DNA from: Hyaloraphidium curvatum
Taxonomy: Eukaryota > Monoblepharomycota > Hyaloraphidiomycetes > Hyaloraphidiales > Hyaloraphidiaceae
Reading direction: 5' to 3'
Length of the DNA stretch: 64,000 bases
NCBI GenBank assembly: GCA_025558095.1
Contig: JAIVFI010000003.1
Coordinates: forward strand, 868,001-932,000
The position numbers and the translations under genes were made by a program. Under the pieces are notes generated by a model. That model did no database searches. It saw only the letters and a program-made list of their open reading frames with translations, and had not been told where the DNA came from. Shown here one piece after another: positions 1 to 22,643 of the stretch; the first letter of the stretch is position 1; each line of letters starts with the position of its first letter.

Positions 1-1284
1 GCCTGCTCCTCGAGCTCCACCGCCGCGGCCTTCTTCCCGCGCGCGAGGTCGGCCGCCGAGGGCCCCTTGCCCGCGGCCTTGATGGCCGCCACGGCGCCCT
101 CGACCGCCCCCCGCACCGCGGCGGCGTCGTCGGCGACGACCGAGATGCCAAACAGCCCCGTGTCGGAGTAGCTCGCGCTCACGGCCTCGACCGTGACGCC
201 CTTGCCCGACAGCTTCGCGAACGGCGCGGCGGCCGACCCCGACGGCACGGCGTACTTGACCCTCGGCGCGCCCGAGCCCAGGATGCCCTTGAGCACCAGC
301 GCCGCTGCGTGGTCGGCGGTGCCGAACGGCACGCCCTCGGTGGCGACGACGTAGCGCGACGGCCCGGGGGCCTCGATGCGGGCTTCGCCGCCGTGGTAGC
401 TCGATGCGGCCTGCGCGGGCGCGCCCGAGCCGAGGTCCGCCCCGCGGAGCACGGCGTCGACCAGCGAGACGAGGTCCTCGTGGTCCACGCCGGCGCCGAC
501 GACGGCGAGGTTCTCGGGGCCGGCGGTCTTGGCGAGGTACTCGAGCACCTTGGTGCGCGTGATCTTCTTTGCGCTCTCGGGGGCGGCGAACAGCGAGTTG
601 CCCAGGCCGCCGCGGAAGGCGGTGCGGTGCAGCGCGTCGGCGACCACCGTGGCGGGGTCCGCGAGGGCGGCCTGGGTCTCGGCGGCCACGTCCGCGGCCA
701 CGTCGGCGAACTGGTGGCGCACCATCAGGTTGGCGAGCACCTGCGAGAGCAGGTTCGGGACCACGTCGACGCTGTGCACAACAAGCGGGTGAGCGGGATC
801 GCGGGGGCGGGGGGCGGGGCGACGCACAGGTTGTCGCGGAGGAAGTCTGTGCCGACGACGATGTACTCGCGGGTCAGGGCGGCGTACGGGTAGTTGCCCA
901 TGAGCTCGGCCTCGCGGGCCTGGCGCAGCGCGGTGCCCTCTGCGGTGTCCTGCGCGAGCATTGCAGGGAGGCGTCAAATTGGGAGCGAGGCGCGCGGATG
1001 GCCCCGCCCACCTTGAAGGTGTAGTCCTTCAGGAAGTGCGACACGCCGGGCGCATCCTTCGGCTCGAAGCGCGAGCCGGCCTTGAGCACCACGGCGACCG
1101 AGCTGGATGGGCCGGGCAGGTCGAGCGTGGCGACGGTGACGCCGCCGGCCTTGGAGACGGCCTTGGGCGCGGCGGCGGCGGCGGCGGGCTGCGCGCGCTT
1201 GATGTTGACCACCAGCGGCGAGCGGGAGGAGGGCAGCACCGCGTAGCCGCGCTTTGCGACCAATTGGGCCGCGTGCCGCTGCAT
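1..1284 (-). CDS. QCR2: Cytochrome bc1 complex core subunit 2 (partial, 3' end missing)
   Basis: Core protein 2 of mitochondrial respiratory complex III, a non-proteolytic M16-peptidase-fold subunit on the matrix side of the inner membrane. Exons read 1284-1012, 949-828 and 771-1, joined by 62- and 56-nt GT-AG introns with frame kept. About 388 residues are visible and no stop is reached, so the C-terminus lies off the left edge. The N-terminus is a typical matrix presequence (Arg/Ala-rich, no acidic residues in about the first 25). Family landmarks are the early GVSHFLKDYTFK segment, the R-EAEL-GNYPY-A--TREYIV block after intron 1, and an Ala/Gly-rich second half. No HxxEH zinc site is seen, as expected for a core protein. 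It is divergent from the RING gene, about 350 bp apart. Confidence 0.9.
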
Positions 1285-1631
1285 CGTCGCGGATGGGAAG
1301 GAGGTGGCGCACAGAGCAGGAGGAGGGTTAGGAGAAAACGCTATGTATGCGGGAGGGCCGCGGCAGGGCCGCGGGCGCCAAGGTTAGAGCCCAACTAGGG
1401 AAAATCGCGCGAAACAAGCTCCGCTCGACCCCCGAATCCAACGGGTTTCCGGGCCCGCCACGGCGTCCGCACTGCGTGGGGTGGGCTACCGCGGTGCAGC
1501 TTAGCTCGCGGAGTGGCCGGCCGGGGTCCGTCAGCGGGATCCGCAGCGTGCGCGCCCGCATGCCGCGGCCGCGTGACAGGCGCATGCATTGCGGCGCGCG
1601 GGTCGGCACGCACACCGGCAACGGCGCCGCC

Positions 1632-3089
1632 ATGCGCGGGGCGTGCGTCGGCGGTGCGCGGGAGGGCGGCAGGCGCGACAGGGCGCCGCGCGGGGCCGCC
1701 GGACGCACCGCGCTGCCGCCGCCGGCGGGGCTCCGAACGCTGCTGCTGCTCGCCCTGCTGGCCGCCGGCGGCCGCTCCTCCACCGTTCCGACCCTTCTCC
1801 ACGAGAGCCCGCGGCACGCGGCCCCGAGTGCCGCCCAGCCCGCCCCGCGCGGACCCCGGTCGCCCCCCGCTTGGCCGGACGCGCAGGCGGAGCCGCCCCT
1901 CCCTCCACCGCCGCCGGCCTGCGCGACCCGCTTCCGCACCGCGTCGGCGCACCTCGCCGCATACGCGCCCCCCGCGGACCCGCCGTTCGACACCCCTTCG
2001 TTCCCAGACCCGAGGGACGTCGTGGCTGCCTCCCGCGCCTCGCGCCAGCCCCCGCTGACAGTCTCGCCCGCCCTCTTCGGCTACTGCATGGAACCGGGCC
2101 TGCCGGTGTGGGGCTCGCTGGTGAGCTTCCTGGGCGCCGCGGACGGCTGCCGCCCGCTCCCCCTGCGCGCCGAACCGGGTCCGCCGCGGATCGCCGTCCT
2201 TGGGAGGGGCAACTGCTCGTTCGCGGCCAAAGCGTCCAGGTGCGCCGCGGCGGGGTACGGCGGCATGCTGGTGTTGGACCGCGGGCCGGCGGCGGACGGC
2301 AGGGAGGGGTACCTGTTCATGGACACGGACGGCCGCGGTGTGCCGGACCCGGGGATCGCGGCGGCGCTCGCGCAGGACGACGCCGCGGAGCGGATCGAGG
2401 AGCAGCTCATGCTGGCAGCGGCGACGGAGACGGAGCTGGCCGTCGTCTTCTTCCTGGACCCGCACAACCCTCCACGCCAGACTCGCCGCCCGGAATCCCC
2501 CTGGCCACCCTCTGACAACCCTCCCCCCCCGCGAGACCGCTCCTTCCCCCCCTCCGACACCTTCTGGCCCCCCTCTCACCCACCCCGCCGGCGCTCCCCC
2601 CCTTTCGCCCTCGCCTCGGCCCTCCTCCCCCTCGTCACCCTCCTCTCCGCCTTCACCTCCCTCCTCTCCCTCGCCCTCCTCCTGCTCGCCGCCGCCCGCA
2701 CGTACCGCCGCACGGGGACCCTCGACGCCGACGCCCTCATCGAGGAGTTCGAATCCGCCGCCTCCCGCGCCCTCCGCGGCCCCGCGATGCGCGGCATGTC
2801 CGGCCTCCACCGGCTCCCGCTCCGCCCGCACCCGGGCGGCGACTCCGGCGCCGAGGGATGCCCCATCTGCCTGGACGACTACCCCCCCTCTTCCCTCGTC
2901 CGCGAGCTCCCCTGCGGCCACTTTTTCCACGCCGCGTGCGTCGACCCGTGGCTCGCGGAGCGCAACGGCGTGTGCCCGTGCTGCAAGGCCGACGTGGAGG
3001 GGATGCTCGAGGCCCACGGGAGGGGGCTGGGGTGGAGGGGGAAGGTGGGGGGATGGTGGAGGGAGGTCAGGAGGACGTGGACGGTTTGA
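1632..3089 (+). CDS. PA-TM-RING type E3 ubiquitin ligase
   Basis: Single-exon gene, about 485 residues from the ATG at 1632. In-frame ATGs at 1347, 1560 and 1584 would crowd the divergent QCR2 start. Order of parts: a hydrophobic Leu-rich stretch near residues 36-49 that could be a signal peptide or anchor; a protease-associated-like segment around 186-220 (IAVLGRGNCSF-AKA); a Pro-rich linker; a transmembrane helix around 325-355; and a RING-H2 finger around 410-452 (CPIC, then CGHFFHAAC, then CPCC). This is the architecture of RNF13/RNF167-like ligases of the endosomal and vacuolar membranes, which ubiquitinate membrane cargo. The substrate cannot be read. The start codon is the least certain part. 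Confidence 0.82.
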   Translation: MRGACVGGAREGGRRDRAPRGAAGRTALPPPAGLRTLLLLALLAAGGRSSTVPTLLHESPRHAAPSAAQPAPRGPRSPPAWPDAQAEPPLPPPPPACATRFRTASAHLAAYAPPADPPFDTPSFPDPRDVVAASRASRQPPLTVSPALFGYCMEPGLPVWGSLVSFLGAADGCRPLPLRAEPGPPRIAVLGRGNCSFAAKASRCAAAGYGGMLVLDRGPAADGREGYLFMDTDGRGVPDPGIAAALAQDDAAERIEEQLMLAAATETELAVVFFLDPHNPPRQTRRPESPWPPSDNPPPPRDRSFPPSDTFWPPSHPPRRRSPPFALASALLPLVTLLSAFTSLLSLALLLLAAARTYRRTGTLDADALIEEFESAASRALRGPAMRGMSGLHRLPLRPHPGGDSGAEGCPICLDDYPPSSLVRELPCGHFFHAACVDPWLAERNGVCPCCKADVEGMLEAHGRGLGWRGKVGGWWREVRRTWTV

Positions 3090-3165
3090 CGTGATGGGGG
3101 GTCTGCGTCGCGCTTCGCAAGCTTCGTCGATTGGCACTCTAGCATACATTCGATACCACGCGCCG

Positions 3166-4161
3166 TCAATCGCCGTCCTGTGGTGCCGGTGCCGGTGCAG
3201 CGACCGGACGAGCGGGTCGGGATTTCGCCCTGGGTCGCCGCGCGTGCGGGGGGGCGTCGCCGTCCGGGCCGCTTTTCGCAATCCGCGGGGCCGTCGCGTC
3301 GGAATCTCCGCCGTGCACGGCCTCCCCTGCATCCTCGGTCCGCGGATCGGAGGAGTCAGTCGGTGACGGCGCGCCCGCCTCGTCCGCGGCCGGCCTCTCC
3401 GCCGGCTCCACACCCGAAGCTCCTCCCACGCCGGTCTTCCGCGGCGGCGCATTTTTCGGTCCCGGGCCGATCCGTCCTTTGGGGGCGGCAGATCGCAACG
3501 GCGCGGCGGGAGGCGGTATCCGTGGCTTCGGCTCCGGCGATGCCGGTTCGGCGTCCGCGTCTTTCGCGTCCGCCGCGGATTCCGCGCCACCGCCGTCCGC
3601 AGCTTTCGCAACCCCGTCCGCGCGGCCGGAAACTCCATCCTCCGAAGATCCGGGATCGTCCCTCGTCGCGTCCGGATCCGGAAACGCCTCCGCGTCCGCA
3701 CCGTCCCCCTCCTCACCATCCCCCGGCCCAGCCCTCAGCCTCTCGCTCCACCCCGGCCCCACCTTATCCCCCCACCCTTCCCCACCGTCCCCCGTCCAAC
3801 CCGCCCTCACATGCCCGTGCAGCGCCCCCGTCGGCATCCCCGCGCCCCCTTCCACCCCGCCCCCCGCGCCCACGTTCCTCAACCGCTCCGCTATGTCCCT
3901 CTCCAGCTCCCCGGGGTCGAACTGCGGCACGAACATCCCCGGCCCGCCGTCGTTGCCCGACGGCGGCCGCGCTTTCCGCAGCAAGGCGTCGATCCTGTCC
4001 CTCTCCGCGCGCTCCTCCCGGGATTCGAGGCGGCCCGAGGGCAGCCTGCGCCGGGGGAGCCGCCGCGGGGGGGTGAGGATGTACAGGACGAGGAGGAGGA
4101 TGAGGCATAGGAGGAGGGGCTGCAGGCGGCGGCGGAGGGCGAGGGGGAGGTCCTTGGGCAT
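3166..4161 (-). CDS. Hypothetical single-pass membrane protein with a disordered tail
   Basis: Intronless, 331 residues. A short basic N-terminus is followed by one strong transmembrane segment (about residues 13-30, Leu/Ile-rich), then an Arg-rich patch. The long remainder is low-complexity Gly/Asp/Glu/Pro/Ala and looks disordered. The positive-inside pattern suggests a type II protein whose tail lies in the lumen or outside the cell. A short charged segment around residues 45-95 (EERAERDRIDALL and LERDIAERLR) could form helices. I recognise no family. The gene converges on the RING gene with a gap of about 75 bp. The composition could come from GC-rich drift, but the Met-basic-TM start and the uninterrupted frame support a real gene. 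Confidence 0.5.
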   Translation of the reverse strand: MPKDLPLALRRRLQPLLLCLILLLVLYILTPPRRLPRRRLPSGRLESREERAERDRIDALLRKARPPSGNDGGPGMFVPQFDPGELERDIAERLRNVGAGGGVEGGAGMPTGALHGHVRAGWTGDGGEGWGDKVGPGWSERLRAGPGDGEEGDGADAEAFPDPDATRDDPGSSEDGVSGRADGVAKAADGGGAESAADAKDADAEPASPEPKPRIPPPAAPLRSAAPKGRIGPGPKNAPPRKTGVGGASGVEPAERPAADEAGAPSPTDSSDPRTEDAGEAVHGGDSDATAPRIAKSGPDGDAPPHARRPRAKSRPARPVAAPAPAPQDGD

Positions 4162-4443
4162 CGCGGGACCGAGGTTGCGGGGAAGGAGCGGGAGACGCGG
4201 GGGGCAGCCGCCCGGCGGGGATCCGCGAGAAGAGATATCAGGGAATCAAAATCGCGCTTCCATTTCGGAGATTCGCGGCCGCGGAGGGCCGCAGCGGTCG
4301 GAGTGTCTTGCGGGAGCGGACGCGGAGCGATCACGCGACGCGGGAAACGTTCTGCCGGCAGCCAGCACGGAGGACGCCTTGCCGCCTTTGGTGGCATTCC
4401 GGACATTGTCTGCTTTCTGCCAGCCGCCGTGCCGCCCTTCCCC

Positions 4444-4924
4444 ATGGCGGACGGCAAGCCCGCCGACAAGGCAAAGGACGCCGACCGCGCCGCGCACCTC
4501 AACATCTTCTCGGACGACGGCTCGTTCCTGGAGCGCTTCAAGCTGCTCAAGGGCGAGGAGGACGCGAAGAAGAAGAACGAGGCGTCGCTTAGGAGGTGGG
4601 CGGGCCGCCGGGGGGCGAGATCGAGTGTCGCTGACGGGCGTTCCACGCGTTTCTCCTTCTGTCCAGGAAACGGGATTGGGAAGAGGCGCTGGTGCGTGCT
4701 GGCTCCATCTCTCGACAGCGTTTTCTGACGCGATTCGCCCCACGGTTCCGCAGAAGAACCGCAAGAAGCGGGCCAAGAAGGCGGACGACGCCGACGGCCC
4801 TTCGGGCGGCACAAAGGCCGCGGACGGCGACACCAAGGCGGCGCCGTACGTCAAGATGGTCAGCGACGCCGAGAAGCTGGCGGCCAAGGAGGCGGGATCG
4901 GGGGTGCGGCCTCTAATGCGATGA
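4444..4924 (+). CDS. Small Lys-rich protein containing a 25-nt microexon
   Basis: Exons 4444-4595, 4667-4691 and 4754-4924 encode 115 residues. The middle exon is only 25 nt; both introns are canonical (GTGGGC and GTGCGT donors, CAG acceptors) and the phases close. The protein has an SFLERFKLLKG motif, a Lys/Arg-rich helix spanning the microexon (KKKNEASLRRKRDWEEALK) and basic NRKKRAKK-type segments that look like nuclear localisation signals. The SFLxRFK motif recalls the telomerase RNA component interacting RNase (TRIR) family, but that is a weak resemblance. The role is unknown; nuclear RNA association is only a guess. It converges on SEN54, with 23 bp between stop codons. Confidence 0.6.
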
Positions 4925-4947
4925 CGCCCGCGGGGCCACGCGCGGGG

Positions 4948-6258
4948 TCACTTTGGCGCCGGTGCGGCCGGCGCCGCAACCTGCGGGCCGCGCTTGACGA
5001 CGCCCTTGGCGGCCTGCTTTTCGACCTTCACCGGCGCGCTGTCGAGCCCGATGAAGGAGACGTTGCCGCCGTCGACGAGGGCCACCACCGTGCGGGCCTT
5101 GTCGCCCTCGCGGCGGCGGGAGAGGAGGCTGCGGACGTCGCGCAGCGAGAGCGCGCCCGACGATGGTCTGCTTGGAGGGGTCGGTCAACGGAGGGGCGGA
5201 CGGAGGGGCCGGAGGATACCCACTTGACGACGGCGACGTGGTAGTCCGGCGGGCCGGGGTCCTTCCGGCGGAAGGGCGTGCTGGGTTTGTACACGTCGAA
5301 GGTTGGCAACATGGCCGGGGGTTCGGAATCTTGCCCCGAAGGGGGATCGCCCGTGAACCGCGGGACGATCTGCAGCTGCGGATACACGCTCTGCGGCGCT
5401 GTTCCAAAGTCAGCATCCCCGGCTGCGGCAGCAGAAGATTCGCCGGCGCTTACTTCGCGGCCGGAAGAAGCTCCCCAAAAGAGTCGTCAGCCTCCCGTAC
5501 AGCCATGTCCACAGCTTCCAGGCGCGCGCGACTACATCAATCCAATGCCGCCTCAGAATGAGTCCGTTGCTCTGGTCCGCCCGCGCCGCGGAAGCGGGCA
5601 CCAACGCGCCCTCCGATCGCGGCTGATGCCGCCTGACGACGTACCCCAGCCTCTTGAGGTACCCGTAGACCGCAAACTCCTCCAGCGTCAGCCTCTTCTC
5701 CCCCCCCTCCCCCCCCTTTCCCCCAAACACGATCGAATACGCCTGCTGCATCGACACCGGCGCGCCCCCGGACGTGAGCACCAGCGCGTTCTGCTCCATC
5801 AGGTACAGCGTCTCCTCGGGGAGCAGCATCGTCACCGGGCCCGCCGAGGTGCCGGCCGACTTGAGGTGGTTGCCCCGGGGTTCCGAGACGGAGGAGACGC
5901 CGTACGGGGTTTCGAGCTTGGCGTGCATGGCCTGCTTGCTGTACGGATCGCGGCGGGGCGTTGGTACGTTGGGTTCCCGAGGGTGGAGAGGCAGGTGCTC
6001 ACGCGGAAACGACCCGATCCTCCTCCAGCACGAGCTTCAAACTCCGCAGCGACGTCTCCAGCGCGTCGCCCTCCGTTTGGACCTCCTCCACGGCGTCGGC
6101 GGCGGTCCCGCGGAGGAGGTTGCTCGGATCCCTGAGCCGAGCGTGAGTGGGACGTGTTGGGGCGTGTAAGCCCAGGCCCACCGCGATTTGTTGGTAAAGA
6201 GCACCGAGTAGTCGACGGCCAGGTCATCTTCGTCCTCGGATTCCTGGGGTTTCGCCAT
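4948..6258 (-). CDS. SEN54: tRNA-splicing endonuclease subunit Sen54
   Basis: Structural subunit of the tRNA intron endonuclease, which pairs with the catalytic Sen2. Exons 6258-6182, 6131-6003, 5938-5454, 5398-5224 and 5167-4948 (introns 50, 64, 55 and 56 nt) give 361 residues. The N-terminal tRNA_int_endo_N2-type domain is clear: YLMEQNALVL, then a QAYSI segment, then LTLEEFAVYGYLKRLGYVV. The C-terminal domain holds FDVYKPSTPFRRKDPGPPDYHV and ends in a strand-rich VVALVDGGNVSFIGLD block. Intron 3 has two in-frame acceptors; I chose the one giving 55 nt because the other gives 31 nt. An in-frame ATG at 6285 is possible, but MAKPQ at 6258 is simpler. The stop of the giant gene at 6410 lies 151 bp upstream of this start, on the same strand. 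Confidence 0.9.
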
Positions 6259-6375
6259 CTTTGCGAACGTCGAGGTCGTTAACAATACAACAAAGAAAGG
6301 AGACTAGGGAAATCCCTCGAGATACCCCGCATCCCCCGAAACCCTGAAGACAATAGCCCGGCAAACGGGCCCCAA

Positions 6376-6387
6376 GGCCTTTCGGCC
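6376..6387 (-). other. GNRA-tetraloop hairpin just 3' of the TnpB/Fanzor-like stop codon
   Basis: On the minus strand this reads GGCCGAAAGGCC, a perfect 4-bp stem closed by a GAAA tetraloop. It starts 23 nt after the stop codon (6412-6410) of the giant gene, in the G-rich 150-nt spacer before SEN54. In TnpB and Fanzor loci the guide (omega) RNA overlaps or follows the 3' end of the nuclease gene, so this is where such an RNA would be sought. The stem is short and could arise by chance in GC-rich DNA. Confidence 0.3.
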
Positions 6388-6409: not shown

Positions 6410-9400
6410 TCACTCGACCTCGACGCAGAAGCCGCGAGGCCGCCTCCCCCCCATCACGCACTCGTAAGCCAGGAGGTAGAACATGTTGAGGGACGCCGAA
6501 ACGTCCCGGTTCCACATCACGTGGCATAACCAGCACTCTGCGCGGCAAGATGCAGAAGGTTAGCTCGCGACTCTGGGCGGAAATGACGTGCGATGCCCAC
6601 TCTTGACCCCCCAGACGTACTTCCGCCTCTCGACAAAGCGCGACATGGCCATGGTCAGCTTCGTCTCCTGTGCGACAATGCGACGTGAGCAGGCGTCGCG
6701 CCCGAGAGAGCTCATCCCTTCCCCACCTTGCACGAATAGCACATCATGGAGGTGTGGTACTCCCGGACCGAGAACCACCAGAGGTACCGGATGAAGACGC
6801 CTCCGGCCCGGTCAACGCACCGAGGCGCGAGCGACAGGGCGCGGAAGGCGACGGAGAGCTGCGGCGGCGATCGCGATGAGAGGCGCCGCGGGAGACGCAT
6901 GCTCGCAGACGGCAACTCACGCGCATCAGAGGAGTGCTGGGGGTTCCTTTGACGTGGGGCCAAACGGCATCTCCCAGAGCGACAATCTGGGCCACGGCAA
7001 CCTTCACCACCACCTCCTTGACCGCCTCCCCTCCACCGTCCTTGTCGGGCGGCTTCTTCTTCCGCCGGAGCCTCGGCTCGTCGGCGATCTCCATGACCTG
7101 GACCCGGAACCGCTTGTCCGTCTTGGCCATCTCCTGGAGAGCCTCGGCGGCTTCGGCGGACACGCGCATGTAGAACGGTTCCGTGACCTCCTTGACCAGG
7201 TCCTGCAGGGCCGACTTGGCGTTCCGCGAAGTGCGCAGGTGCAGGTCCCTGTCGAGCGGGAAGCGGGATTGTGAGCGGAGCGGCGGTGCGTGGGCCAAGG
7301 CAGGTAGTTCACCTGAGGCGCGCCTGCTCGTAGAACTCTATAGAGAGAAAAGAAACGTGCTGTCAGACGACGGGTGGTGCGCAACGCGCGCGTGACTCGC
7401 CGGAAATCCACGGCCTCGAGTTGATGATGCACATGAGGCGGAGCATGAGCATGTCCGGATCCGTCGTCTTGGAAGTGGGGATGTTGGACTCGAAGAGCTT
7501 GAGCCCGATGTCCCGGATCTTGACGACGCGATCCCGCGGAGGAGGAGCTTCCACACCGGCCTGGGGCACGTCCGCGGACTCGGCATCCACGTCCATGCCC
7601 ATGGTCGATTTCTTGCCCTTGCCCCCCTTGCCGAGGCGCTCGGCCACCTCCACGGGAACGTAGGCGAACTGCAGGCGGCCGGCGGAGATCAGGGACACGG
7701 GAAAGAACAACGCGGCGATGGAGGCCAACCTTCATGACGTGCGCCTTCTTCCACTTCTCCGAGATCTTCTGGTACGTCACGAAGCCGGCGGCGCGGCGGT
7801 AGACGTCGAGCGGGATGGTGCAGACCGCGATGAAGGTGCCGTCGATGGTGTTCGGGAGGAGACCGAGCCCGCGGAAGAACTGCTGCTTGGTCGGCTCCTC
7901 GCCCGGCTTCTTCAGTCCCTCGTCGTTGACGTAGACGGGCTCGCAGTCGAAGTACGTCTTGGTGTAGTCCTTGAGCTTCTCGACCCTAACCCTCTCCTCC
8001 TCGGTCGCGTCCCGCAGCTTGGCGCGAGCCTGCTGCTCCTCGGTCGGCTTGCGGTGCTTCGGGAGCATCGACTTGTCGGGATTGCCGGGGTACCTCTCCG
8101 GCTTGTACCCCGCCATGGTGTCGGGGTGGGAGCCGAAGGGGAGCTTGGGCTTGGGGACCTCGGGCTTCTCGGGCCGCACGTTCCGGAACTGCGGCTGTCC
8201 GCCCTGGTCCCCGAGATCGAGCTCAAGACCGTAGCCGTCGGCGCGGGCCTTCATGCGCGCCACCATCTCCGAAGTCGCGAGCCGTTCTTTGCCGCTCACA
8301 TGCACGACCACCTCCCGGCCGCGGTGCGTCTTGGTCTCGCGCGAGACGTAGACGACCTTGGAGACGCCGTTCCTCTCGCAGTACAGGGTGGTCAGGCGAG
8401 GGTTGGGGTCTCGGACCTCGCCCGTCCGGTGGTCGATGACGACGTTCCTCTTGAGCATCGCCATCACCCCTTCATACTTGTCCTCGTTGAGTATGCGAAT
8501 CATGGTGGGGATCTCGCGCTGTCCGGCGTCGCCTCCGATCTTGTCCGGCTCGGCGAGTTTCGGGTAGTCGTTCAGCGCGTCGTTGAGGACCTCTGGAGGT
8601 TCAAGACGGATTAGAATAGGTAGAGTTGCGACCGAAACAAAACCTCACCGAGTCCCTCCTTGCACCTCTTCTTGTACGCCTCGTCCCGGAGCTTGAGCTT
8701 GTCGAGGTCGTTGGCGGCCTTGCGAGGTCCATCGAGCCATTTGCCGTCCGCATCCACCCGGTGCAGCGTTAGGTCCTTGAAGATGGGAACGGCGCACGTG
8801 GGGTCTGCGTACAGCCCCACGAACTCGCGCCGGACGCGGCCGCCTCCGTCAATCTCGTCCTGGAACTTGCTCATGTCGAACACGCTGCTGGAAAGGTGAC
8901 CAAAGTTGTGCACGAACAGGGTGGCCGCCGCGCTCTGATCGGCGTGGTTGATGGGGTTGACCTTGGCGCTGCAGAGCGACAAAGGTCAGCACGGGATCGG
9001 CGGCGATCAACAGCGTCGACATACCCCTTGAGGACCTGGAAGAGCGTCGACTTCGAGTAGTAGTGCATATGGGGGGAGATGCTGTACTCGGGGCCAAGCG
9101 GGTACTGCTTAGGGGGGCGCGGAGGAAGGCGAGGAAGCTTGGCGGGCTTCGGAGGTTCGGGAGGGGGCGTCTGCGCCGGCTTGGCGGGCTTGGCGGGCTT
9201 GCCGTCTTTGCCTGCCTTGCTGGCCTGGGGAGCCGGAGCCGGAAACGCCGGAGAGGAAGGAGGGGAAGGGGAAGGGGCGAAAGGAGCAGAGGATGAGGAA
9301 GAGGAGGAGGGAGAAGGAGGTCCTGCCGGGGCAGGGGCAGAGGCGATTGCAGCGCCGCCCGAGGGGCCGGCCGCCGCCGCAGCCGCCGTCTTGGCTGTCC

Positions 9401-12400
9401 TCGCGGGCTGCACGCGCGGAGGAGGCGTTTGCGACGAAGAGTCGACGCGGTGTCGGGGCTTGGGCAAGGGGAGGTCGCGGATGGCGACGTCGGTTCGACC
9501 GATGGCCTTGAGCTTGGCCGCGAAGCGGGCGAGATGGCGGCCCGCCGACTTGAAGCCGCTTTTGTAGCCCTTCTGCACGCCGCCGTCCGAATTGGCCTTG
9601 ATCTCGAAGGTTCCGTCGGGCCCTTGCTCATTTTCGGCTGACGTCGAGGCAGAGGAGGTCGGCGGAGGTGCGGAGGTGCCCGTGCTGGCGGCGGCGGGAG
9701 CAGGCTCGTTTTGCTGGCGTTCTTTCTCTCTCTCGTCAGCCGCAGCGCTCCGCGCATCCATCAGCAACTTCCGGTGAGGTTCAAGGAGCCGGAGGAGGGC
9801 AAGGCGCACGGGCATGCAGCGCGTGATCTTGATGTGGTCGGCGCTGCGGCGCTTGCGCTTCTTCTTAGTCCCGTCCTCGGCGTCCGCGGCTGCGGCTTCT
9901 TGAGCAGCAGCAGGCGCGCCGCCGCCCGCGGGGAGACCCTCGGCCTCGACGTCCGCCATCTCCACATCCTCGTCCTCGTCCTCGTCCTCATCATCGTCAT
10001 CGCCGTCGTCGCCGTCCGCCTCGGCGAGATCGTCGCTGCGCTCGACCTGAGCCTTCTTGCGAACGCCGGGCGCCTGAATCTCGAGCTTCCCGGTGCGGAA
10101 GGAAGTCAGTTTCGCGGAGACGAGCGCGGCAGTCGCCACAGGCACCTTGCGCACGTCGTCCTCCGTGGCCTCGCCGGCGGCCTGGTACGGAACGTACGAG
10201 AGCATGGCCGGCTTGCCCATCTCGGGATAGAGCCGAGGATCGGCGTACTTGTACCGCGGGTGGCTCCAACGCTTGCCGTTCATGGCGTTGGCGAGCTGCT
10301 TGAAGTACTCGAGCCTGTTGTCGCACCACGCACTGTACGCGTCCTGCGGGAGACCGTGTGTCAGCAGCGCGAAAAGAGGCTTCGGGTGGCAAGGCAACGG
10401 ACCTTCCGAGTCTCGTGCTCCTCGCCGTAGCCCACGTAGACCTCGTGCGTGAACTGGCCCTTCCGGTCCGGGTGCTCCGTCTCCATCTTGAACGACCAGG
10501 TGTTGAAGAGGTCCGGAGGAGGATTGGGGAGGACGAGCTGCGGGCGATCGAACGTTTAGGCAGCGCAAGCGGTGGCAGCCAGAGCCGCGGTAGCTCACCT
10601 GTTTGGGGGTTCGGAGCTGGTCAACGACCTCGGGATCGAACCGATCGAAGAGCGCGGATATGGTCTTCAGCACCGAGACGACCTTGTCGGCGTCCTCCTG
10701 CGTCATGTCGGTGCGGATGTGGCCCTTCCGCTCCGCTTCCTTTTGCGCTGCTTCGGCAGCCTCCTCGAACTGCTCGGCGATCTCCTTGGCGTCCTCGATC
10801 GACAGCTCCTCGTCGTCGTCGTGGTCATCGTCGTGGTCATCGTCGTGCTCGTCGCGCTCGGCGTGTGCAAGTGCCTCGGCCTGTTCGGTCGCCTCCGCCT
10901 CCTCTTCCTGCGCCTCCTCGTCGTCCTTGTCCTCGGCGATCCCCATCGGCCGGCGGCCCACGGTGATGAAGGCGAGGTCGACGTCGTCCGGCTTCATGTT
11001 GCGGTTGAACGCCTCGCGCGCGCGGGAGGCGAGGTGCTTGACCTTCCTGGGGTCGGCCTTGGAGGAGAGGAGGAGGCAGCGGATCACGGTGGTGATGAGC
11101 GGGCCCGAGGCGACGAGCATGTTGCAGAGCGCGGTGAGGTATCGGTCCGCCGTCTGGGCAAGGGCCTGCGAGGTCCATGATTGGGCATGGTCAGGGTGGG
11201 ACGGGGCTGGAGAGCCACGAGGACGCACCAAGTCCGTGACGCCGTAGTCGTTCTTGACCTTGTCGTCCAACAAGCCCTTGTCGATGACCTCCTGGACCGA
11301 CTTGCGCAGGCGATCGAAAGTGTTGCGCACGCGCACCTTGTCCTCCTCCGAGACGTTGGACTCGTTGAACGAAAACTTGATCTCAGGGTCCCGGCGAGCA
11401 ACTGAGGATGCCGATAAGCATCGTGCCGAGCAAGCGGCGCAAAATGCGAGACCAACCCATCTTGAAGAGCGCACGCATCGAAGACGACGACATGGCGAAG
11501 TCAAAGTCGTCCGGAAGATGGGCGACGAAGTGATTGACGAACATCTGACTTGCTTCCGTATCTGCGCGGCTGAGGTTGGACATCCCCCGTTTCCAAGGCC
11601 CGAGCAGGTCGCGAAACATGGGCAAGACGAGGGATTCGAGGGCCACGTGGGGCCTCGCAACGTAACGTTCCTGCATGAGCCGCAATCAGCGCGATCGGAT
11701 GAGCCGGCGCGGCACGACCCACGTGGACGCGGAAAAGCTGCTTGCCCTCGGGGTCGAGCTGGTTGGCGAGCGACTCGGCCCACAGCACCGTGGCGAGCGA
11801 GCACCCCTTGTCGTGCTTGTCGCCCTTGCGCCCGCACGAGATGCACTTTTCCTGCGCGCGACCGCGGCCCGCCTGCGCGCCGTCCTTGATCACCGCCTCG
11901 GGAATGTCGCCTGCAGTGTGCCGCGTGCCCGTCAGGCGCGCCGCGGCGATGTTCCGGTCCTTCTTGAGTGTGATGTCGGTGACAAGCGGCAGCCCTGGGG
12001 AAAAGAGCGTCAGTCTCGTTCATTGCGATGGCGAGTGATGCCTCACCGTGCGCGATCGCGCTCTCCCTCGCGCGGAAGAACTCCGCCGCATCGTAGACGG
12101 GAGGGAAGAAGATGGCGGGGCCCGGAGGGGGGTGGAAGCGCTTCCGATCGTCGTCCTCGCGCTCCCGCGCCGTCGTGCGCTGGGCTCGCTCGGTGCCGAT
12201 CCTGCGGAAACGAAAGGGCTGTCAGATCGCACGCCGCAGGCGATCGGCCGAATAGCTGGCTTACCGGAAGCCGCGGACGAGGTCCTCGGGCACGCCAGCC
12301 TTGAGCGCCGCGTGGACGATCGCCTCCAAATCCTGGCCCTTGACCGAGACCTCTGTGCCATCCCCCAACTTGAAGGTAGCCCTTCCATGCTCCCGCTCCT

Positions 12401-15400
12401 GGTGCTGGCCGATAACACGGTCGGGCTCGAACAGCACGCCGCGCGCCGCCATCGAAACCAGTTCCCGCGGGTAGCCGCCGCAGTGGATGCAGTAGCCGTG
12501 CTCCGCGGCCGCGGAGGTGCCGGCCTGGATGCCGCACTTGAAGTTGAGCATTCCGAGGATGTTGGAGAGCGCGACAAGCGCCTCGCCCTGGATGGCAAGG
12601 TGGTGTAGGGTCGTGGCAGCACACTTGGGCGTCTGAAGGCAGAATCCCACGGCCGGCTCGGTGCGGTGGAAGATGTTGTGGGGAAGCGCGGAGTAGTACG
12701 ACTCGAGGTGCGCGCGGATCTTCGGCAGCCAGGCGAGCCACCTGGCAAGTGTGTCGGCGTCAGCTTCCGCCTCGTCGAGGTCCTTCTTCAGCTTCTTGAA
12801 GCGCTCGTCTGCGGACTGAAAAGCCCTCCGTAGCCCTTGGTAGCCGGTTTGGCGGCCCAGCTCGGTGCGTATCAAGTCGTTGCGCGCCTCGCGACTGCCA
12901 GGATCGATGCCGCGCCTCTCGGCCTCCCGCCTCACGAAGACGTCGTACTCGTGCCAGGCCTGCCGCGCAGCCCGCTCGGCATCTTCGAAATGCCCACGCA
13001 GCTCGGCCACGCGCTTGTTGCGCTCGGCAGCGTTCTCCTCCGAAACGATCTTGCACTGCAGAAAGAGGTCGTGAAGGCTGCGGAAAGCACCCAGGGTGGT
13101 GGCAGGGAACGGCCTCTGCGTTGCCCGGCCGTCGAGGGTCCAGATAACGTCGGCGTGCTTGAGGCTATCCGCGGCCCGGATTATGCCCTCCTCCTTGGTG
13201 AGGCGCTCCGAAACGCTCCCGTCGGCGGTGCCCTCCGGCGGAGCCCGGATGGCGGCAAAGCCTGCCCGAAGGTTGTACCAGAAGTCCCAGGCGCAGCGAC
13301 GGAGCCGGATGCATTCCGCCGACTTCACCTGCCGGAGCTTCGCCTGCTTGTTCTTCTCCGCCTTGGAGAGCGCTTCCCTCTGCGCTTTGGAAGCCGAGGA
13401 CCTGCGCAAGGGGTCCAGGGCCTCCTCGACGAGCCGCTCGAAACCCGGTCCCGGTTCCTTTCCCGCCAGCTCGGCTAGCTTGTCGGGCACGTGCACGCCT
13501 CCTGCGCCGAGATCCTTCAGCCTGCCGACTAGCTCCTCGACCATCTCCCGCAGAATTAGCCGCTTCTTGGGCTGCAGCTCGCCCTCCTTGGCGAGGCAGT
13601 CCCTGGGGAACACCTCAGCAATGAGCAGCTCAAACCCCCTTCGGTCTTTCGCCCTCATGATGTCGTGGAGGAGGAACTCGTTTGCCAGGTTGTGGCCGCC
13701 GTTCCGAAAAGGCTTGCCGGCCAGCTTCTCGGCAATCTTCCGCACGATCGGGCCGTAGATTTCGTCCGCCGCGAGCATGTCGATATCTTGGCCTGGAAAG
13801 AAGTCATCCACGATGTGCCTGACAGTGAGGGACGGGATCGGCGCCCTCTTGCCCGCGGGAGCGCAATTCATCTAGCGGGAAGGAGCCGAGTCAGCTGAGA
13901 ATCCAAGGCAGCGGACGCGGAGTACCCACCCGGAGTTGCATTCGAAAGCGCTCGTCCCCTTGCCGCTTGATCTCGGCCTCCTCTTCCGCCAACATGGCCC
14001 GGATGTTGAGATTGCGCCTGAGAAGCTCCGGGACCGGTATCGCGGCAGCGCCTTCTCCACCAGCCTCCTCCGTTCCCGCCCCGCCGCGAGGTCGCTTCGG
14101 CGGTGGGCTGTTGCCCACGGAGGGCGCGGCGCTGTGCACGGGCCCCGGAGGCCCGGTCCCGCGGCGCACCTCCTTCAACGCGCGGTGCTCGAGGTTGGTC
14201 GAGGTCTGCACGGCGGGGTGGTCAGGCTGACGGAAATGGTGCAATAGACTGGGAGCCAAAACGCACGTTCTTGGAGGCCACGGCATTGAAAGGCTGCTCG
14301 CGGTGGATAGACCCCGGCTGCCTGTCGTCCATGCCAACGTAGGGCAGCTCCTCGCGGCTGGGCACCGGCTCCGCTCCGTCGTCGCTCTGATTAGAGGCGG
14401 CGAGTCAGCTTTGGTCCGAGCTCGAGAAGGCGGCAACCCACCACCGGGTTGCTGGCAAAGTAGGCCCCCAGGAAAGAGTCGAGCCCACGATCGCGGTGCA
14501 GGTACGGATCGAGCTTGTGGCCTTGCTGCACGCCGAGCCGCTCCGCGATGCCGGTGATGCCCTTCTTCTCGTAGATCCGACGGACGTCGGCGACGGTCTG
14601 CATCGACGACCGAGACAGAAGGTACTCAAGAAGCGACCAGAGCGGCGACACGTTGCCGAAGCCGTTACGGAAGAGCTCGAGCACGGACTGAAGAGGATGT
14701 CCGTCAGGCAAACTATGCAGCACAGCGCGCGCGCAGACACCCACCGCGACGGGAGGAGGGCCCACGGGCTCCGGCTCCAGGCGACTCCCGGGGAGCTGCG
14801 CGGCAACCCGCCTGTAGTCGCCGGCCGAGATCAGCAGCTGTGGTCCAGATGTGCCGAAGTCGCTCTGTGCGGGCTTCGGTGAGCAGGGACTTGCTAGCGG
14901 CAAGCATGGCGAAGCCAACCTTGATGAAGATGGCGCCGAGCTCGGTCCAGCCAGGAAGCACCCGGGAGTTCGGTTGCGCCCGAAACGTAGCAAAATGCCG
15001 CACATCCCGTGCGGTGTCCTGGTCGATCTCGAGGCCCTTTCCGTGCGCCCAATCGATAAGGCCGAAGAAAAGCCGGCGCCCGAGCTCGTAAGCGTGGTAC
15101 TTGAGGATCTCCAGACCGAAGACGGGATCGCCAGCACCCAGATTGAGCAGATGGGCCTGAACGGCCGCAGGAGCAGCGAAGCCCATCAAAGTGCAGAGGC
15201 CATGACAAACGAGGTGCACCCCAACTTCTTTCAGCCGGCTGTCCATGTAAAGCTTGCCCGCAAACGCTTCCCATTCGTGAAGACCGGCTGACGGCAGGTG
15301 CCGACGCTCCAGCACGTTGGCCTGGTCCGCGACGGTCTGAGCGGCGGCGCCCACGTCCGCGTCGGCCGCCGGGATGTCGCGGGGCTCAGCGGCCTGTGCC

Positions 15401-16369
15401 GTCGGCTGACCATACGTTAGGCCGGCCAGCTCTTGGTCACGTACGGCCTTGACCAGGTCGGCGCTGCCTATGCCGTAGCGCTCCCGTGTCTCCCCGACAA
15501 TACGCTGGATGCGCTCGCGCTGCGCACGGGAACAGCAGTGAGCCAAATGCGCAGTCTGCGCACTCCCGGAACTTACATGGAGGCAGTACAGCATGAGGTT
15601 GTCGACGAGCGGGTTTGCTCGGTGAGATAATCCCCCGACCTCGTTCGTAAGGAGAATCCTGACGTCCTGGTCCTTAAAGACGTCGGCGAGCTTGCCTTCT
15701 GCCAGAAGCAGCTCGCGCACGCCCTTTAGGCCGCCGCTGGCGAACTTCTCGAGCAGATCTGCCACCGACTTGAACACCACGTCCACGCGTGCCAAGAGCT
15801 TGCGGCGGTCCTCGGGATCGCGGATCGCCTGCACCGCATGCCTGAATAGATCCGACGGTTTCTGAGCGCGGCGGAAGAATGTCAGCCTCGGTTATGGTCC
15901 GCCGATGGAAGTTCACCACCTCCGGGTTGCTCAGCGGAGGCCTCCTGAACACGTAAGCCTCGTTCAAGTCGACGCCGCCCTGGAGGAACCGTTCCCTTCC
16001 GGAATCCGTCCTGCTCGGCCCGGCGGATGGTGGCTGCTGGAGAGCGGCCTGCTGGAGAGCGGCCTGCTGGAGAGCGGCCGGCGATGCTGGCCGTGCGACG
16101 AGGGACGCGGCCGGTGGGACAAGTGGCGCGACGCCGCCGCGGCCCCGTCCCCTCGGCTGCGTAGCACCTCGCTGGGCGGCGGGCTGGGGGTTAGCAGATC
16201 CACCGCGTCCGCCTCTGGGCGCGGCAGCGGCAGGTGCGGCCGGCGGAGCCGAGGCGGGCGTGCCCGCGCCCCCGCCTCCGCGGGAGGCCCCACCACGGCC
16301 GCCGCCACGCCCTCCGCCGCGGCCACGTCCGCCGCGTTGAGATCCGGCGCTGGAAGAGCCGCGAGTCAT
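6410..16369 (-). CDS. Giant multi-exon protein with a TnpB/Fanzor-like C-terminal nuclease signature
   Basis: One gene of 22 exons, about 2,916 residues, with phases consistent at every junction. Exons: 16369-15917, 15861-15577, 15519-14920, 14864-14442, 14386-14282, 14226-13930, 13871-12265, 12201-12047, 11994-11723, 11670-11457, 11401-11229, 11165-10599, 10537-10403, 10343-9025, 8968-8649, 8592-7730, 7668-7386, 7337-7313, 7248-6921, 6858-6727, 6667-6601, 6537-6410. The N-terminus is an RGG box. Mid-protein there is a C-x2-C-x6-H-x3-C motif (about 1359-1373), Asp/Glu runs and a KKKRKRR patch. The C-terminus carries the TnpB/Fanzor pattern: ALGDA-W (about 2791), EYHTSMMCYSC (first CxxC, about 2848), then CWLCHVMWNRDVSASLNM (second CxxC, about 2876; RuvC-III Asp about 2886). 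D2370 (RDPNPRLTTLYC) is a weak RuvC-I candidate. The middle matches nothing I know. Least certain: the donors of exons 5 and 17. Confidence 0.7.
16034..16078 (-). repeat. Three exact 15-bp tandem units inside exon 1 of the giant gene
   Basis: CTGCTGGAGAGCGGC on the plus strand is repeated three times without change. On the coding strand each unit gives an Ala-Leu-Gln-Gln-Ala-type block, so the repeat expands a Gln/Ala linker just after the RGG box. The unit length is a multiple of three, so copy-number change keeps the frame. The lack of any mismatch suggests a recent expansion. Confidence 0.85.
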
Positions 16370-19300
16370 GGCTGATGGGCGCTGCTGGCGTTCTCGCACG
16401 CGTCGTGCCGCAAGTGATGAAGGGCGCCGACACGGCGCGCCTAACCCAAGGCCACGCGTCCAGACGCGTCCAAAAGCCCTTCGCAGTTTCCGTTTCCAAA
16501 CAGTTCCACAGCAGCCTGCCGCTCGGCTCGCCCTCCCTACTTGCCAGGGGCTCACCAGCCGGAGCCGATTGACCGGGGGTCCCGGCAACTCCGCCACGCT
16601 CGGACCGGCGAGCGGGATCGGACTCCCGCGTCCCCGCGAAAGCTCCCTGCACCGCTACGTAGAGGCTGGGAGATTGAACGCCAAGGAGCTCGCGCTCGAT
16701 TCCGCTCTTCTTTCGATTCGGCTGCCAGCTTCGAGGGGATTCCCGCCGCGCATTGTCCTCGCGCCGGCGGATGCCAGCGCGGCTCCAGATACCCGGTCCT
16801 TTGAGCTCCAGAGGAGGATAGCCGCGACCACGGGACCTCCGTTGCTTCCAATGTTTCGGCGAGGCGAGACGGTCAAGCAACGGATGCGGTGCGGGATCCT
16901 CAGCATTGGCCCCTGAACGGCCCGAATCCTCCTGGAATCGTTTTTCCTCGCGGCATACCGGGAGCTCGGCCACCTTTCTGTGGAATGCCTGCGGTGGCAG
17001 GTCGCGGAAAGGAAGTTTCCATGGTTCGACAGTACCGCGGAGCTTCGGCCGTCATATCGGCGGTGATCGGGCGCAAAAGGGAGCCGCGCCGTCGGCATCG
17101 CCTTCCAAGATGCGTTTGGCGCCGTCTAGGTGTCATTTCAACGGGGATGCGCTGCAGGTCGAGGGGTTCGTGGCGCGGTCGTCTCGAGGCAACATCAAAC
17201 ATCGATGAAGTCGCTGATTTGCAATCTCTTCATGTACGGCCAGACCAATGCATCTCGAGAAACTAGCTTGGGCCGCCCGTACTTCGGTCAAGTTGTCTCC
17301 AACCTCCGTTGCCTGAGGAGCGTTGCGCCGTTCCGAGCTGACCCGGCGACCCCAAGGCTATGCCTTCAATAATACTCACGCCTGCCAAACCGCGCCCGCG
17401 GGCTGTCCGTCACTCTCTCCTCTCGTCTCGATCACCGTCCAGAACCTCTCTAATGGTTTACGTCGGGCTCATCTGTGTCCCGCGGAGTGGAGTCCGCCTC
17501 GTAGCGTTGTTCAAGCGAGAGGCAAGCTAGATTCCTGCATCCGGCGGTGATCGTCGGGCAGATCCTTTGGTTAGTGCCTACGTCCACCATCCACTAGGAT
17601 TGCTCCGTTTTGGCATCGTCGGCATCGCGTGGAAACGTCAGGGCTTCCGCTGCTGGTCGCAGTCGAGGGCTGCTCTGCAGCCTTATCGCGCCACGCGGCA
17701 ACAAGGTCTGGGGCATCGCAGCACGGCACGGCGTCGCACACCTCGGAGCAGCAGCCGGGACCACGTCAAACAGGACCTTGTGCTTGCCATCCACCATGAG
17801 CACGCACGAGACTGGCGGCGAACCGAGGGATTGGAATACCCGAACCAGCCATTGCGAGTCGGGCGCCGAGGCGGCAATCGCCCCGACCGCTTCAATGGTC
17901 TTCATCCCGCACAAGTGTACGCAGAGCAAATCATACACCTCTACAACGGTTTTTTGCCCTTCAAGCTCTCGGAACCGCCCCAGGATTGACGATGCAGGCG
18001 CTTGACCGTTTTGGCTGGGAGCATTCCCTGCCTTCATCTGCCCCCAACTCGATCAATACCTCTGTTCCGACATTGTCGATACGATATAGCACCCAAAAAC
18101 TCGTGCTAACCGGGCGGATGTGGTCGGGAACGCGCTGTATCTTGCCCAGTTGTTTGTTCCATCTCGGGGAGAAGCGCATCCGGACGATCCCTGCAGATAC
18201 ACGCACTGGCAGTACAAGCAGTGCATGCTTGTTCATTGTCATCACCCGGACTCGCCGATTGGTTCTCCATCTCAGTAGCTTTTGCCGTTCGGCTGGACAC
18301 GCACGTCCGACCTCCCCCAAAGCATACAGTGCGTACTTCCATGCTGGGAAGATCTACAATAGCGATAGTCTGCCAGAATGAGATCACAGATATGCTGTTT
18401 CTTTTTCTGGGCCCGTGGTGACCGCAGCTTCTCACTTTTGGCTTGTCAAGTCGTTTCCGGTGAACGGTCTCGGCTGGCGAGAAAGGGGCACCCACCCAAA
18501 AGCCAGTCCACGAGGCAGGTCGCAGCAAAGCCGGCCCGGCAAGCATGTCAAGAATGAACGGGCATCCACTTCATACCCTGCACTTCAGGTTCCCATTCCG
18601 AGTGCACGGTGTGGGCCTCCTTGCATCTGCGGTCCTCCGGTGCATGCCGTTCGGAGCAGGCAGTCTCCCGATGCTCGATTCTGCTGTACCGTTATGTGGA
18701 CGTTCCATCTCAATGGAGGGAATGATGGCAGGTGTCATGATCAGGCTAGGAAAACTCAAGGTGTGGTTCAGAAATCCGAGCTACCGTCCCATCTATGCGT
18801 CTTGATTGGTGCTGCACGCCTCCTTCGATTGCGTTGTAGGCACTTGGTTGATGATTTCTTCACGTTCAATGCGGCTGGAAGCAAACTCTGGGGCATGTCA
18901 AGACTCTGGTAACGTTGCCTACGAGAGGCGGAATTGGAGGCCATGAATACGGCACTTAACGACAAGGAAGCCAGGAATCAGTCCCAACATGGATCATAAT
19001 GACGCATAAAATGGCTTTCTGAACCGAAGCATCAGTGCTCCAGTGTCTGTGCCGATAGCGAGAGTCAGCTTATGCTTCCACTTTGCAAGATTCACGGCAT
19101 CGATCACAATGACGAGCTTATCAGCATCCATGTTTCGACGGTTTCGGCTATCAGCGTAGGTTTCGTGGCCCAACAGCTTCTCTCCCTCCCCGGCATGAGC
19201 AGGGAGATGCCGGACTGTGACATAGGTCAAATCAAGATCTCGCCATGGATCGCACCAGCGCGTGACAAGGCGCGTGCCTCCTGCCACCGGCAATGGCAGT

Positions 19301-21092
19301 CTCAACAAGCCGTTTTGCTGTGCGTGATCATCCTCGTCCAATAGACTGACGAGCTCCATGATCGCCGCGAGGAGGGGGGCTCAGTCTTCAAGCTGATAGA
19401 GCCAGGGAATCAGGCACGGCCCCGTGCTGCGTAAATTTGATTCAGCGGACCGAAAAATCCATTGTGAAACGACGGTGGCTTGCTTTGACCCAGGCACGGG
19501 TGAGAAAAGGGTTGGTTGACTTTGTCCTCGGGCGGTCCACGAGTTTGGCTTTGGTCCACGAGGACGTTGCCCGGCCGGTCCACGGCCACCGCTTCTGGTC
19601 CACGGCCACTGTTGACGGTCTACCATTTGCACGAATGGCCCACGCCGGGGTTCTCTGGTCTGCCAAACCTGAAGCGGTCCACGACTGCGCGGACGGTTCA
19701 CGGAAACCTGAAGTGGTCCACGACTGCACGAGCGGTTCACGGATGCCCCAAAATGGTCTACGGCGATGCGCAGGTGGTTCACCGCCGCTGTTTCCGACTC
19801 GTATCAGCGTCCTTCACGCGGAACATTCCGCCGACCCCACGGGGCATCTATGGCCGCTGCCGCGCGCTCTACGGTGCTCCAGAGGGCGGCAAGGAGTCGG
19901 GGTCCGAGCTTCGCCCCGCGCGGACCGGAGCGCCAGGACTTGGGAAGCCGGAGATATCCTTCAAACTGCCGCCGGCCCCGCTCGTTGAGGCTGCTCAGGA
20001 AGCGCACGGTCGTGTCGCCCGAATCGTGCGAGTAGCCACACAGTGCCGCCGCACGAACAAAGCGATCCGCGACTATTGCGATCTTGGCGCCAACTGATGT
20101 GCGGACGAGTCGCAAGACTGCCCGGAGGGACGGCCAGGCCGCATAGGGCCCGTCTGACGCCCACAGCGGGGTGCGTGCGCCCGAGGCGTCGGCCGCCCAG
20201 TGATCGGACCATTTGGACCTAAGCCTTTCGACGAAGCACCGGGTGCGGCGCATCTCTGCGCTGTCTACGAGCTGTTCACCGCTCATCAAGGAGAATCGGC
20301 GCACGGCAGGTGCACAGTAGCGGCCGCAGCATCCGCAAGATCGGAGCACAACTCAGCCGGAAGGACTGCTTGCGTAGTGAAGACAAAGGAAAAGCGACGC
20401 AATGCCATCTCCGAGATTCAAACAGCAATCAGACGCTTTGAGGCTGGCTCTCGCTGCAATCAGGCTGGGCGATGGTGTTGCAGGTGCAAGAGATTCGGAG
20501 CAGGAGTCAGCCGCACCCACAAGCCGGCACAAACACCAAACATCAGTGCTTCCGAAACTCTTCCATGCAGCCGTCATAATCTAATCTCCGGCAGTTCAAG
20601 TGTGCAGCTGCGGTCCATGGCCCCGGCGGACATCCGACAAAGGAACGGGCAATTTGCCCAAAGAAAGGAGCCGTTCGGGGCGAACCAGTGTGGTCTACAT
20701 GTTAGCTACTTTGAATCTCACGGAATTGGCTTGCCTAAACAGTGGGACTGTGCTCTTCTGGAGTCTTTGGCAAGGAAATGCTGTTCGGATGGAATTCGAG
20801 ATCGTCGCAAGTGTTGCTCGGGCGGCCAACCGGGCGGCCAGCGCGCGCGCGCCCAACGTTCTAGCCCCACACAGCCAACTCTTTTGAGACGAGGGTGCCG
20901 CCGCCGCGCCGAATCCTACGGGCCGCGTCGCTCCAAAAACGTGCGTTGGAAGCGCGGTGTCGGGTCGCCGGCCAGGAAGCGCACCGCGTCCGGCGCGCAG
21001 CACGCCCACCATGTTCGCACCGGCTCACACCGGCGGATCCGCATTTGCCCCGCAGCTCCCGCCGATTCCGAGTCTTTCCGCAGTTTGCCAGG
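16370..21092. other. Gene-poor 4.7-kb stretch with no gene I can support
   Basis: Between the start of the giant gene and the zinc-finger gene I find no recognisable protein, tRNA or rRNA. The sequence is visibly less GC-rich in places than the genes around it. Three minus-strand open frames look somewhat protein-like but match no family and do not splice together convincingly: 18037-17594 (contains VVEVYDLLCVHLCG and VSCVLMVDGKHKVLFDV), 19359-18994 (contains DLDLTYVTVRHLPA) and 20349-19804. They could be decayed or lineage-specific genes. A 20-bp-period repeat lies at 19534-19796. Part of the interval must also hold the promoter of the giant gene. Confidence 0.5.
19534..19796. repeat. Degenerate minisatellite of about 20-bp period with a GGTCCACG core
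   Basis: The octamer GGTCCACG or a close variant (GGTTCACG, GGTCTACG, GGCCCACG) recurs at 19534, 19553, 19577, 19597, 19617, 19637, 19657, 19676, 19695, 19715, 19734, 19755 and 19776. Spacing is 19-21 bp, with one 24-bp step. The remainder of each unit is diverged; two alternating units share CGACTGC-type tails. The period is not a multiple of three, so this is not a coding repeat. It may be an old tandem array or a cluster of protein-binding sites. Confidence 0.8.
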
Positions 21093-22007: not shown

Positions 22008-22643
22008 CTAGGTCACGATACCCGAGCGTTGTCGGCCGGCGGCCGGCTCGCTAGCGAGAATCTGCTCGTGGAAAGCAATGTGCCTCTCCGGCTGCGCCGC
22101 AGCCTCGGAGCTGACGTATCTGACCTTCTTCCGCACGATGCCCTGCCTCCGCAGCACCGTGGAGACGTGCTGCTGAGTGACGGGCACACCGAACCTGGTT
22201 TCAAAGTCCTTCGCCAGTCGCGCCTGGGTGACCGTGACCCGCTCCAGGGCCTCCTTGGCCAACCATGCGGCCCGTTCAGGAGTGACCTTAGAGCTGGTCG
22301 GCGCCCGGCGGGGCTCCTTTTCCTGCGGGACAGCGGCTGCTTCGGCCTGCCAGCGGAACAGGGTGCTGCGATTGATGCCGAAGAAACTGCATATGTTCGG
22401 GACGGGGATTTCGAGCCCATTCTTCATGCCGAGGGCAACTTCCCGACGGTCCACGAGATGCCGGGACATCGCGGGAGTTGTGTCGGTGATGATACCCTTC
22501 CGCAAGGTCCTAGTCTCGACTGTGGAACAGTAATGGTCGCGACGCCGTTTTTGAGACGCGACCAAACAACCAACATTCCTTCTTCGCGATGCCGAAATCG
22601 AAGCGTTCGAAAGTCGGTGCGTGTCCTGCTGCCTCCCTCGCAC
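22008..22643 (-). pseudogene. Truncated IS630/Tc1-mariner-type transposase remnant (DNA-binding half only)
   Basis: An open frame of 211 codons whose part from about 22470 to 22060 resembles the N-terminal helix-turn-helix pair of Tc1/mariner/IS630 transposases: SRHLVDRREVALGMKNG, then ICSFFGINRSTLFRWQ, then a second domain with TQARLAKDFETRFGVPVTQQHVSTVLRRQGI and a trailing AFHEQI. In intact elements a catalytic DDE/DDD domain of about 150 residues follows. Here the frame stops shortly after and nothing downstream resembles it, so this is a broken copy or a domesticated DNA-binding fragment. The 5' part of the frame overlaps the start of MRT4 on the other strand and is probably not transposase. 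I could not identify terminal inverted repeats by eye. Confidence 0.65.

Follow-up and report, generated by a model that had tools for sequence, protein, structure and literature searches.

The window, a 64,000-nt stretch of a Hyaloraphidium curvatum contig, carries on its minus strand a giant gene (16369–6410) whose predicted product of 2,864 aa ends in a RuvC-type residue set and a Cys4 zinc ribbon. Upstream of it lie a truncated transposase and further transposon sequence (Table 1). A small gene (~5410–6300, minus strand), which starts MAKPQESEDEDD, sits directly 3′ of the giant gene and resembles by eye the Sen54 subunit of the tRNA-splicing endonuclease.

Table 1. Features of the giant gene and its surroundings in the window.
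Feature	Position	Strand	Remarks
Giant gene, predicted Fanzor1 type	6410..16369	-	24 exons; gene model and exon pattern common to the contig 13 paralogue (L037)
Exons 1–8	15917-16369, 15577-15861, 15445-15519, 14920-15393, 14745-14837, 14442-14687, 14267-14386, 13930-14205	-	
Exons 9–16	12265-13871, 12047-12201, 11723-11994, 11457-11670, 11229-11401, 10599-11165, 10403-10537, 9025-10343	-	
Exons 17–24	8649-8968, 7730-8592, 7401-7668, 7313-7337, 6921-7248, 6727-6858, 6601-6667, 6410-6537	-	
N-terminal module	14267..15861	-	92% nucleotide identity, introns included, to a contig 5 copy
RuvC-I Asp, D2283	8528..8530	-	GGDAGQRE; DPG/DPN in paralogues; invariant column, 7 members
Rearranged catalytic Glu, E2789	6760..6762	-	six residues ahead of first zinc Cys; invariant column
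Cys4 zinc ribbon, C2796, C2799, C2824, C2827	6503..6741	-	approximate span; exons 22–24
RuvC-III Asp, D2834	6503..6505	-	WNRD; invariant column
Two small hairpins, candidate guide-RNA scaffold	6376-6387 and 6356-6370 (6356..6387)	-	within ~60 nt after the stop; weak statistics
Apparently non-coding stretches	18665-20355 (91%), 17643-18461 (85%); together 17643..20355	-	colinear with contig 23 element
Truncated IS630-type transposase	22041..22533	-	N-terminal helix-turn-helix part, DDE part missing; 96.6% identical to contig 23 element; tblastn E=5e-11
Probable 5′ end of element, TACTGTTCCAC	~22533	-	common to window and contig 23

The giant gene was re-modelled without the exons of the earlier reader, using splice-signal scores and the codon bias of the window's long open frames. 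This independent dynamic-programming model gives a continuous coding path from the ATG at 16369 to the stop codon at 6410–6412 and, refined with paralogue information, became the final single open gene model. Its 23 introns measure 51–82 nt, 22 of them GT–AG and one GC–AG. The original prediction of one gene of 2.9 kilo-residues in phase over this span is borne out, with 24 exons in place of the 22 proposed. The first modelling pass missed a 25-nt microexon (7313–7337); a GC–AG intron at 7338–7400 is assumed because the microexon then fits in frame, an assignment that is a choice and not a proof. The microexon, the 67-nt exon at 6601–6667 and the exon 21/22 junction all recur in the contig 13 paralogue (36% identical), so the C-terminal exons are independently supported. 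A microexon of the same size is found at the same place in the paralogues of contigs 13, 15, and 23.

Exons 1–8 are the least certain part of the model. Since an in-frame ATG opens exon 9, a shorter protein of ~2,190 aa is possible, and with it an arrangement of two genes in which exons 1–8 encode an element protein of their own and that ATG (13871, MNCAPAGK) is the start of the Fanzor protein. The ATG opens the exon exactly, right after the AG, and the contig 13 paralogue matches the window protein strongly only from residue 1312 on. The N-terminal module also has a copy of 92% nucleotide identity on contig 5 (G000 C5:414051–415700), downstream of a DDE_3 transposase, where neither a giant body nor a zinc ribbon was found nearby and no Fanzor C-terminus is detectable. 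Two genes are nonetheless unlikely: a clean 58-nt GT–AG intron links exon 8 to exon 9 in frame, and without splicing the upstream frame would reach a stop just ~19 nt short of the exon 9 ATG, which leaves no room for separate transcripts. The compared exons of the two module copies contain no stop, with a dN of 0.063, a dS of 0.164, and a dN/dS of 0.38.

The C-terminus of the window protein holds a RuvC D-E-D set and the zinc ribbon, the latter within the string EYHTSMMCYSC...CWLCHVMWNRD. A string of this type occurred in none of 20,000 shuffles of the window protein. Seven C-termini from the one genome were aligned: that of the window, two from contig 2, and one each from contigs 11, 13, 15, and 23. 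In all seven, the residues D2283, E2789, C2796, C2799, C2824, C2827, and D2834 are invariant (D31, E537, C544, C547, C572, C575, and D582 in the numbering of the window fragment). The Fanzor/TnpB-like motif string noted in the original prediction is thus present and conserved in the family. Its proposed RuvC-I residue, Asp2370, corresponds to about D2315 in the present numbering and is ruled out by the alignment, which places the catalytic Asp at D2283; the other two catalytic residues are numbered here E2789 and D2834.

Several details of this region are those of Fanzors. E2789 stands six residues before C2796, the Fanzor-specific position of the rearranged RuvC-II Glu, defined as Ealt in PMC10711439; ordinary TnpB places its Glu differently. 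The ribbon has the Fanzor1 flanks TS-x-x-C and RD (TSMMCYSC...CWLCHVMWNRD). Two other features depart from the published patterns. The RuvC-I motif, near-exclusively DPG in Fanzors, is DAG in the window protein, DPG in the relatives on contigs 13, 15, and 23, and DPN on contig 2 and in two sister families, A and B, described below. DPG is not strict, because the accepted Fanzor1 of Spizellomyces punctatus (SpuFz1) has DPN. The distance from D2283 to E2789 is 506 residues, outside the published Fanzor pattern D-X(125-275)-[TS][TS], and it is roughly 315–410 in correctly read paralogues.

Profile searches agree with the proposed TnpB/Fanzor affinity of the C-terminus. The window sequence matches PF07282 with E=3e-4 (21.3 bits, under the 26.3 cut-off) and the NCBIfam guided_TnpB profile with E=1.3e-4, and PF07282 is found in all seven family members, in some above the Pfam cut-off. 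Against the whole PDB, the family profile has as its top match the Guillardia theta Fanzor1 (E 1.6e-6), with SpuFz1 at E 2.4e-4. This last value overstates its significance, because an unrelated MYND protein scores about equally and ~1e-4 is not strong alone in that search. The SpuFz1 match extends beyond the ribbon to a common C-terminal RPxxF. With the ribbon removed from the profile, two PDB hits remain under E=10, of which SpuFz1 is the first, at E 0.11 in two colinear pieces. One piece lies at DPNKRD, the site of the catalytic D383 of SpuFz1 (numbering from PMC11423790; offset calculated from the fused chain), and D2283 is the predicted equivalent of D383. By itself the window C-terminus has diverged too far for phmmer: a single-sequence search gave no match in PDB.

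Two AlphaFold runs on a single-frame paralogue, covering its RuvC region, reached a mean pLDDT of 42–43, too low for a fold search, so the RuvC fold is predicted from motifs and profiles. It could be argued that the giant is an unrelated protein that ends in a zinc ribbon and a chance RuvC-III-like string, given that the window sequence by itself yields just sub-threshold hits and that the AlphaFold models are of low confidence. This is very improbable in view of the D, E, D and four Cys invariant across the seven members and of the first rank of Fanzor1 for the family profile even without the ribbon.

The window and contig 13 paralogues are homologous over ~1,500 residues (E 1.7e-42). In a PDB search, a profile of the region just ahead of RuvC did not recover the WED domain of Fanzor and gave only chance matches; TDG-like strings are visible there by eye only. 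A Sigma70_ner match in the middle part of the window protein was rejected as an acidic low-complexity match. The family profile found no relatives among viral contigs.

The surroundings of the gene are those of a transposon. In a search of the whole genome (31.9 Mb, 55 contigs), some 30 DDE_3 transposases were found, and on contigs 13, 15, and 23 one lies 10–15 kb upstream of the giant gene. For these three, the closest full relatives, and for the window gene, the transposase is upstream on the same strand. The four pairings in four loci are not chance, because the estimated probability is <1% per locus with ~30 transposases in 32 Mb. The transposase of the contig 2 elements likewise matches the window at 22050–22250 on the minus strand (tblastn). 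The sister elements have a DDE_3 transposase above the cut-off and the window copy keeps the N-terminal part alone; since the DDE part is missing, the window copy is probably immobile. In contigs 12, 15, and 23 the 3′ end of the element lies ~75 nt past the stop codon; it is not recognisable in the window, though the 5′ end is.

The upstream and coding parts of these elements appear to differ in age. Upstream sequence is 85–96.6% identical between the window and contig 23, while identity falls to about one quarter in the C-terminal protein regions, so the elements look chimeric, with near-identical upstream sequence joined to old, diverged giants. The shared upstream blocks were considered as coding cargo and rejected, having no clear codon periodicity. 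On contigs 13 and 15, a 5.1-kb block upstream of two diverged giants is 95% identical (G000 C13:328798–333873 and C15:361031–366121). Its first ~4.5 kb are almost identical and lack codon periodicity, and the block is possibly a recently inserted or exchanged piece.

At a probability of about 0.7, we favour placing the window gene in the Fanzor1 lineage, as a giant that occupies the 3′ end of a large DNA transposon of the IS630/Tc1 type which has probably lost its mobility. The link of the gene to the transposon is supported by the neighbouring transposase and the upstream element sequence. The original prediction had also considered a domesticated derivative, and a protein that derives from a nuclease, works for the host today and was left behind as the transposon around it decayed would account for several features: the body of the window protein is single-copy, the adjoining transposase lacks its DDE part, and 2,864 codons remain open across 23 introns. 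Yet identity to a sister element reaches 97% in the upstream sequence, which implies that decay may be recent and that the frame may have had no time to break. The relatives, moreover, sit in the same kind of element, and two families of such giants have been amplified in IS630/Tc1-type elements. Domestication is thus improbable and the reading as a transposon-borne giant Fanzor1 is retained.

The two amplified families, A and B, are compact elements with an IS630-type transposase and a giant Fanzor-type protein each, present in at least 15 copies (10 of family A and 5 of family B). Three compared copies of family A are 99.9% identical over 8.6 kb, and copies of this family have TA target duplications, imperfect terminal inverted repeats of ~15 nt, and a transposase whose DDE motifs appear intact by eye. 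In both families, one stop-free frame spans the transposase into the giant (808 and 790 codons, respectively). These frames are alignable for 427 residues past the transposase at 36% identity, with pN (0.48) below pS (0.66). A similar transposase–giant continuity is found in the gene models of the contig 2 pair. In the well-aligned parts of three paralogue pairs, dN/dS is about 0.18–0.39, which shows purifying selection; these values are biased downward because well-aligned columns alone were kept.

We read the frames of families A and B as a putative transposase–giant–Fanzor fusion, although the product may instead be processed or alternatively spliced. In such sister elements, a single protein would probably both move the element and carry the nuclease. 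A broader proposal, tentative and somewhat short of even odds, is that these genes represent giant Fanzor1 systems of a new class. An IS630-type transposase and an RNA-guided nuclease would make up one polypeptide of ~2,500 residues in families A and B; the window gene and its relatives would be split versions with large bodies, and guided cutting would be coupled to transposition through the added regions.

By analogy with TnpB and Fanzor, the window protein would bind a guide RNA transcribed from the hairpin-bearing stretch that separates the stop codon from the element end and would cut guide-matching DNA with its RuvC site. Guided cutting would help the element to persist, for example if a cut at an empty site is repaired by copying the element into it again. 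Ahead of RuvC, the ~2,200 residues probably comprise WED/REC domains together with large additional regions in which Cys clusters and acidic linkers occur. The proposal of an OMEGA-type nuclease at the end of a huge polypeptide accordingly stands in part: a Fanzor-type C-terminus with catalytic and zinc residues is present on the 2,864-aa protein, and guidance and cleavage are inferred.

The candidate guide-RNA scaffold consists of two small hairpins after the stop codon (Table 1), a layout also found at the loci L041, L042, and L043 on contigs 12, 15, and 23. The stem of the second hairpin has some compensating differences between the window and these three, which are close to each other, so the comparison is effectively n=1. 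Shuffled sequences fold nearly as well. A 37-nt non-coding block in the 3′ untranslated regions of families A and B (L044 and L057) is 92% identical and hairpin-capable, and the proteins of the two families are far more diverged than this block. As suggestive leads for an omega RNA, the hairpins and the block fall short of evidence of one.

Known Fanzor1 proteins are mostly 600–700 aa (PMC11423790) and reach ~800 aa (PMC10711439), whereas the giants here have about 1,900–2,900 aa, 10–23 introns, and large N-terminal regions without known domains. The original statement that no member of such size has been described is upheld for open-licence papers, in which no larger protein, giant Fanzor, or transposase–Fanzor fusion was found. 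With SpuFz1 and the Guillardia Fanzor1 (GtFz1), the giants share the RuvC D-E-D set, the position of the Glu six residues ahead of the Cys4 ribbon, the TS before the first Cys, the C-terminal RPxxF, and carriage by DNA transposons, including Mariner/Tc1. The transposon-borne giants with DPN share this RuvC-I motif with SpuFz1; the window protein differs in its DAG and in its D-to-E spacing (506 versus 158 residues). The bacterial TnpB proteins, including IS607 TnpB, have a similar zinc ribbon and RuvC-III, but the guided_TnpB match covers only the C-terminal ~50 residues and the window Glu is in the Fanzor position. The Mariner-type Fanzor elements PGv-1 and PUl-1 (Bao and Jurka 2013, PMC3627910) likewise have a Tc1/mariner-type transposase, a TA target duplication, and a Fanzor1 inside the element. 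There, Fanzor1 is described as a protein distinct from the transposase, in contrast to the one open frame of families A and B.

These giants would extend the Fanzor size range three- to four-fold, within one genome where recently multiplied transposons carry giant Fanzor-type proteins. They make testable a long-open question, namely what a TnpB/Fanzor nuclease does for a transposon when joined to the transposase. Family A, whose copies are nearly identical and whose frame is open, provides material for testing the role of the nuclease.

Other large genes of the genome have features of their own. In the contig 2 giant L038 (2813–6850, minus strand), a stretch with GDCLFESV resembles an OTU protease (PF02338 E 0.029, below cut-off); in the other contig 2 copy this stretch seems to be lost at its Cys, and no OTU-like match was found in the window protein. 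On contig 5, L040 (G000:C5:334501–344500; 1073–5586, minus strand) is another large TnpB/Fanzor-like gene. Its upstream part resembles an XPG/FEN1-type nuclease (PF12813 below cut-off), and it has the RuvC-I motif GLDVG and a PF07282 ribbon above cut-off.
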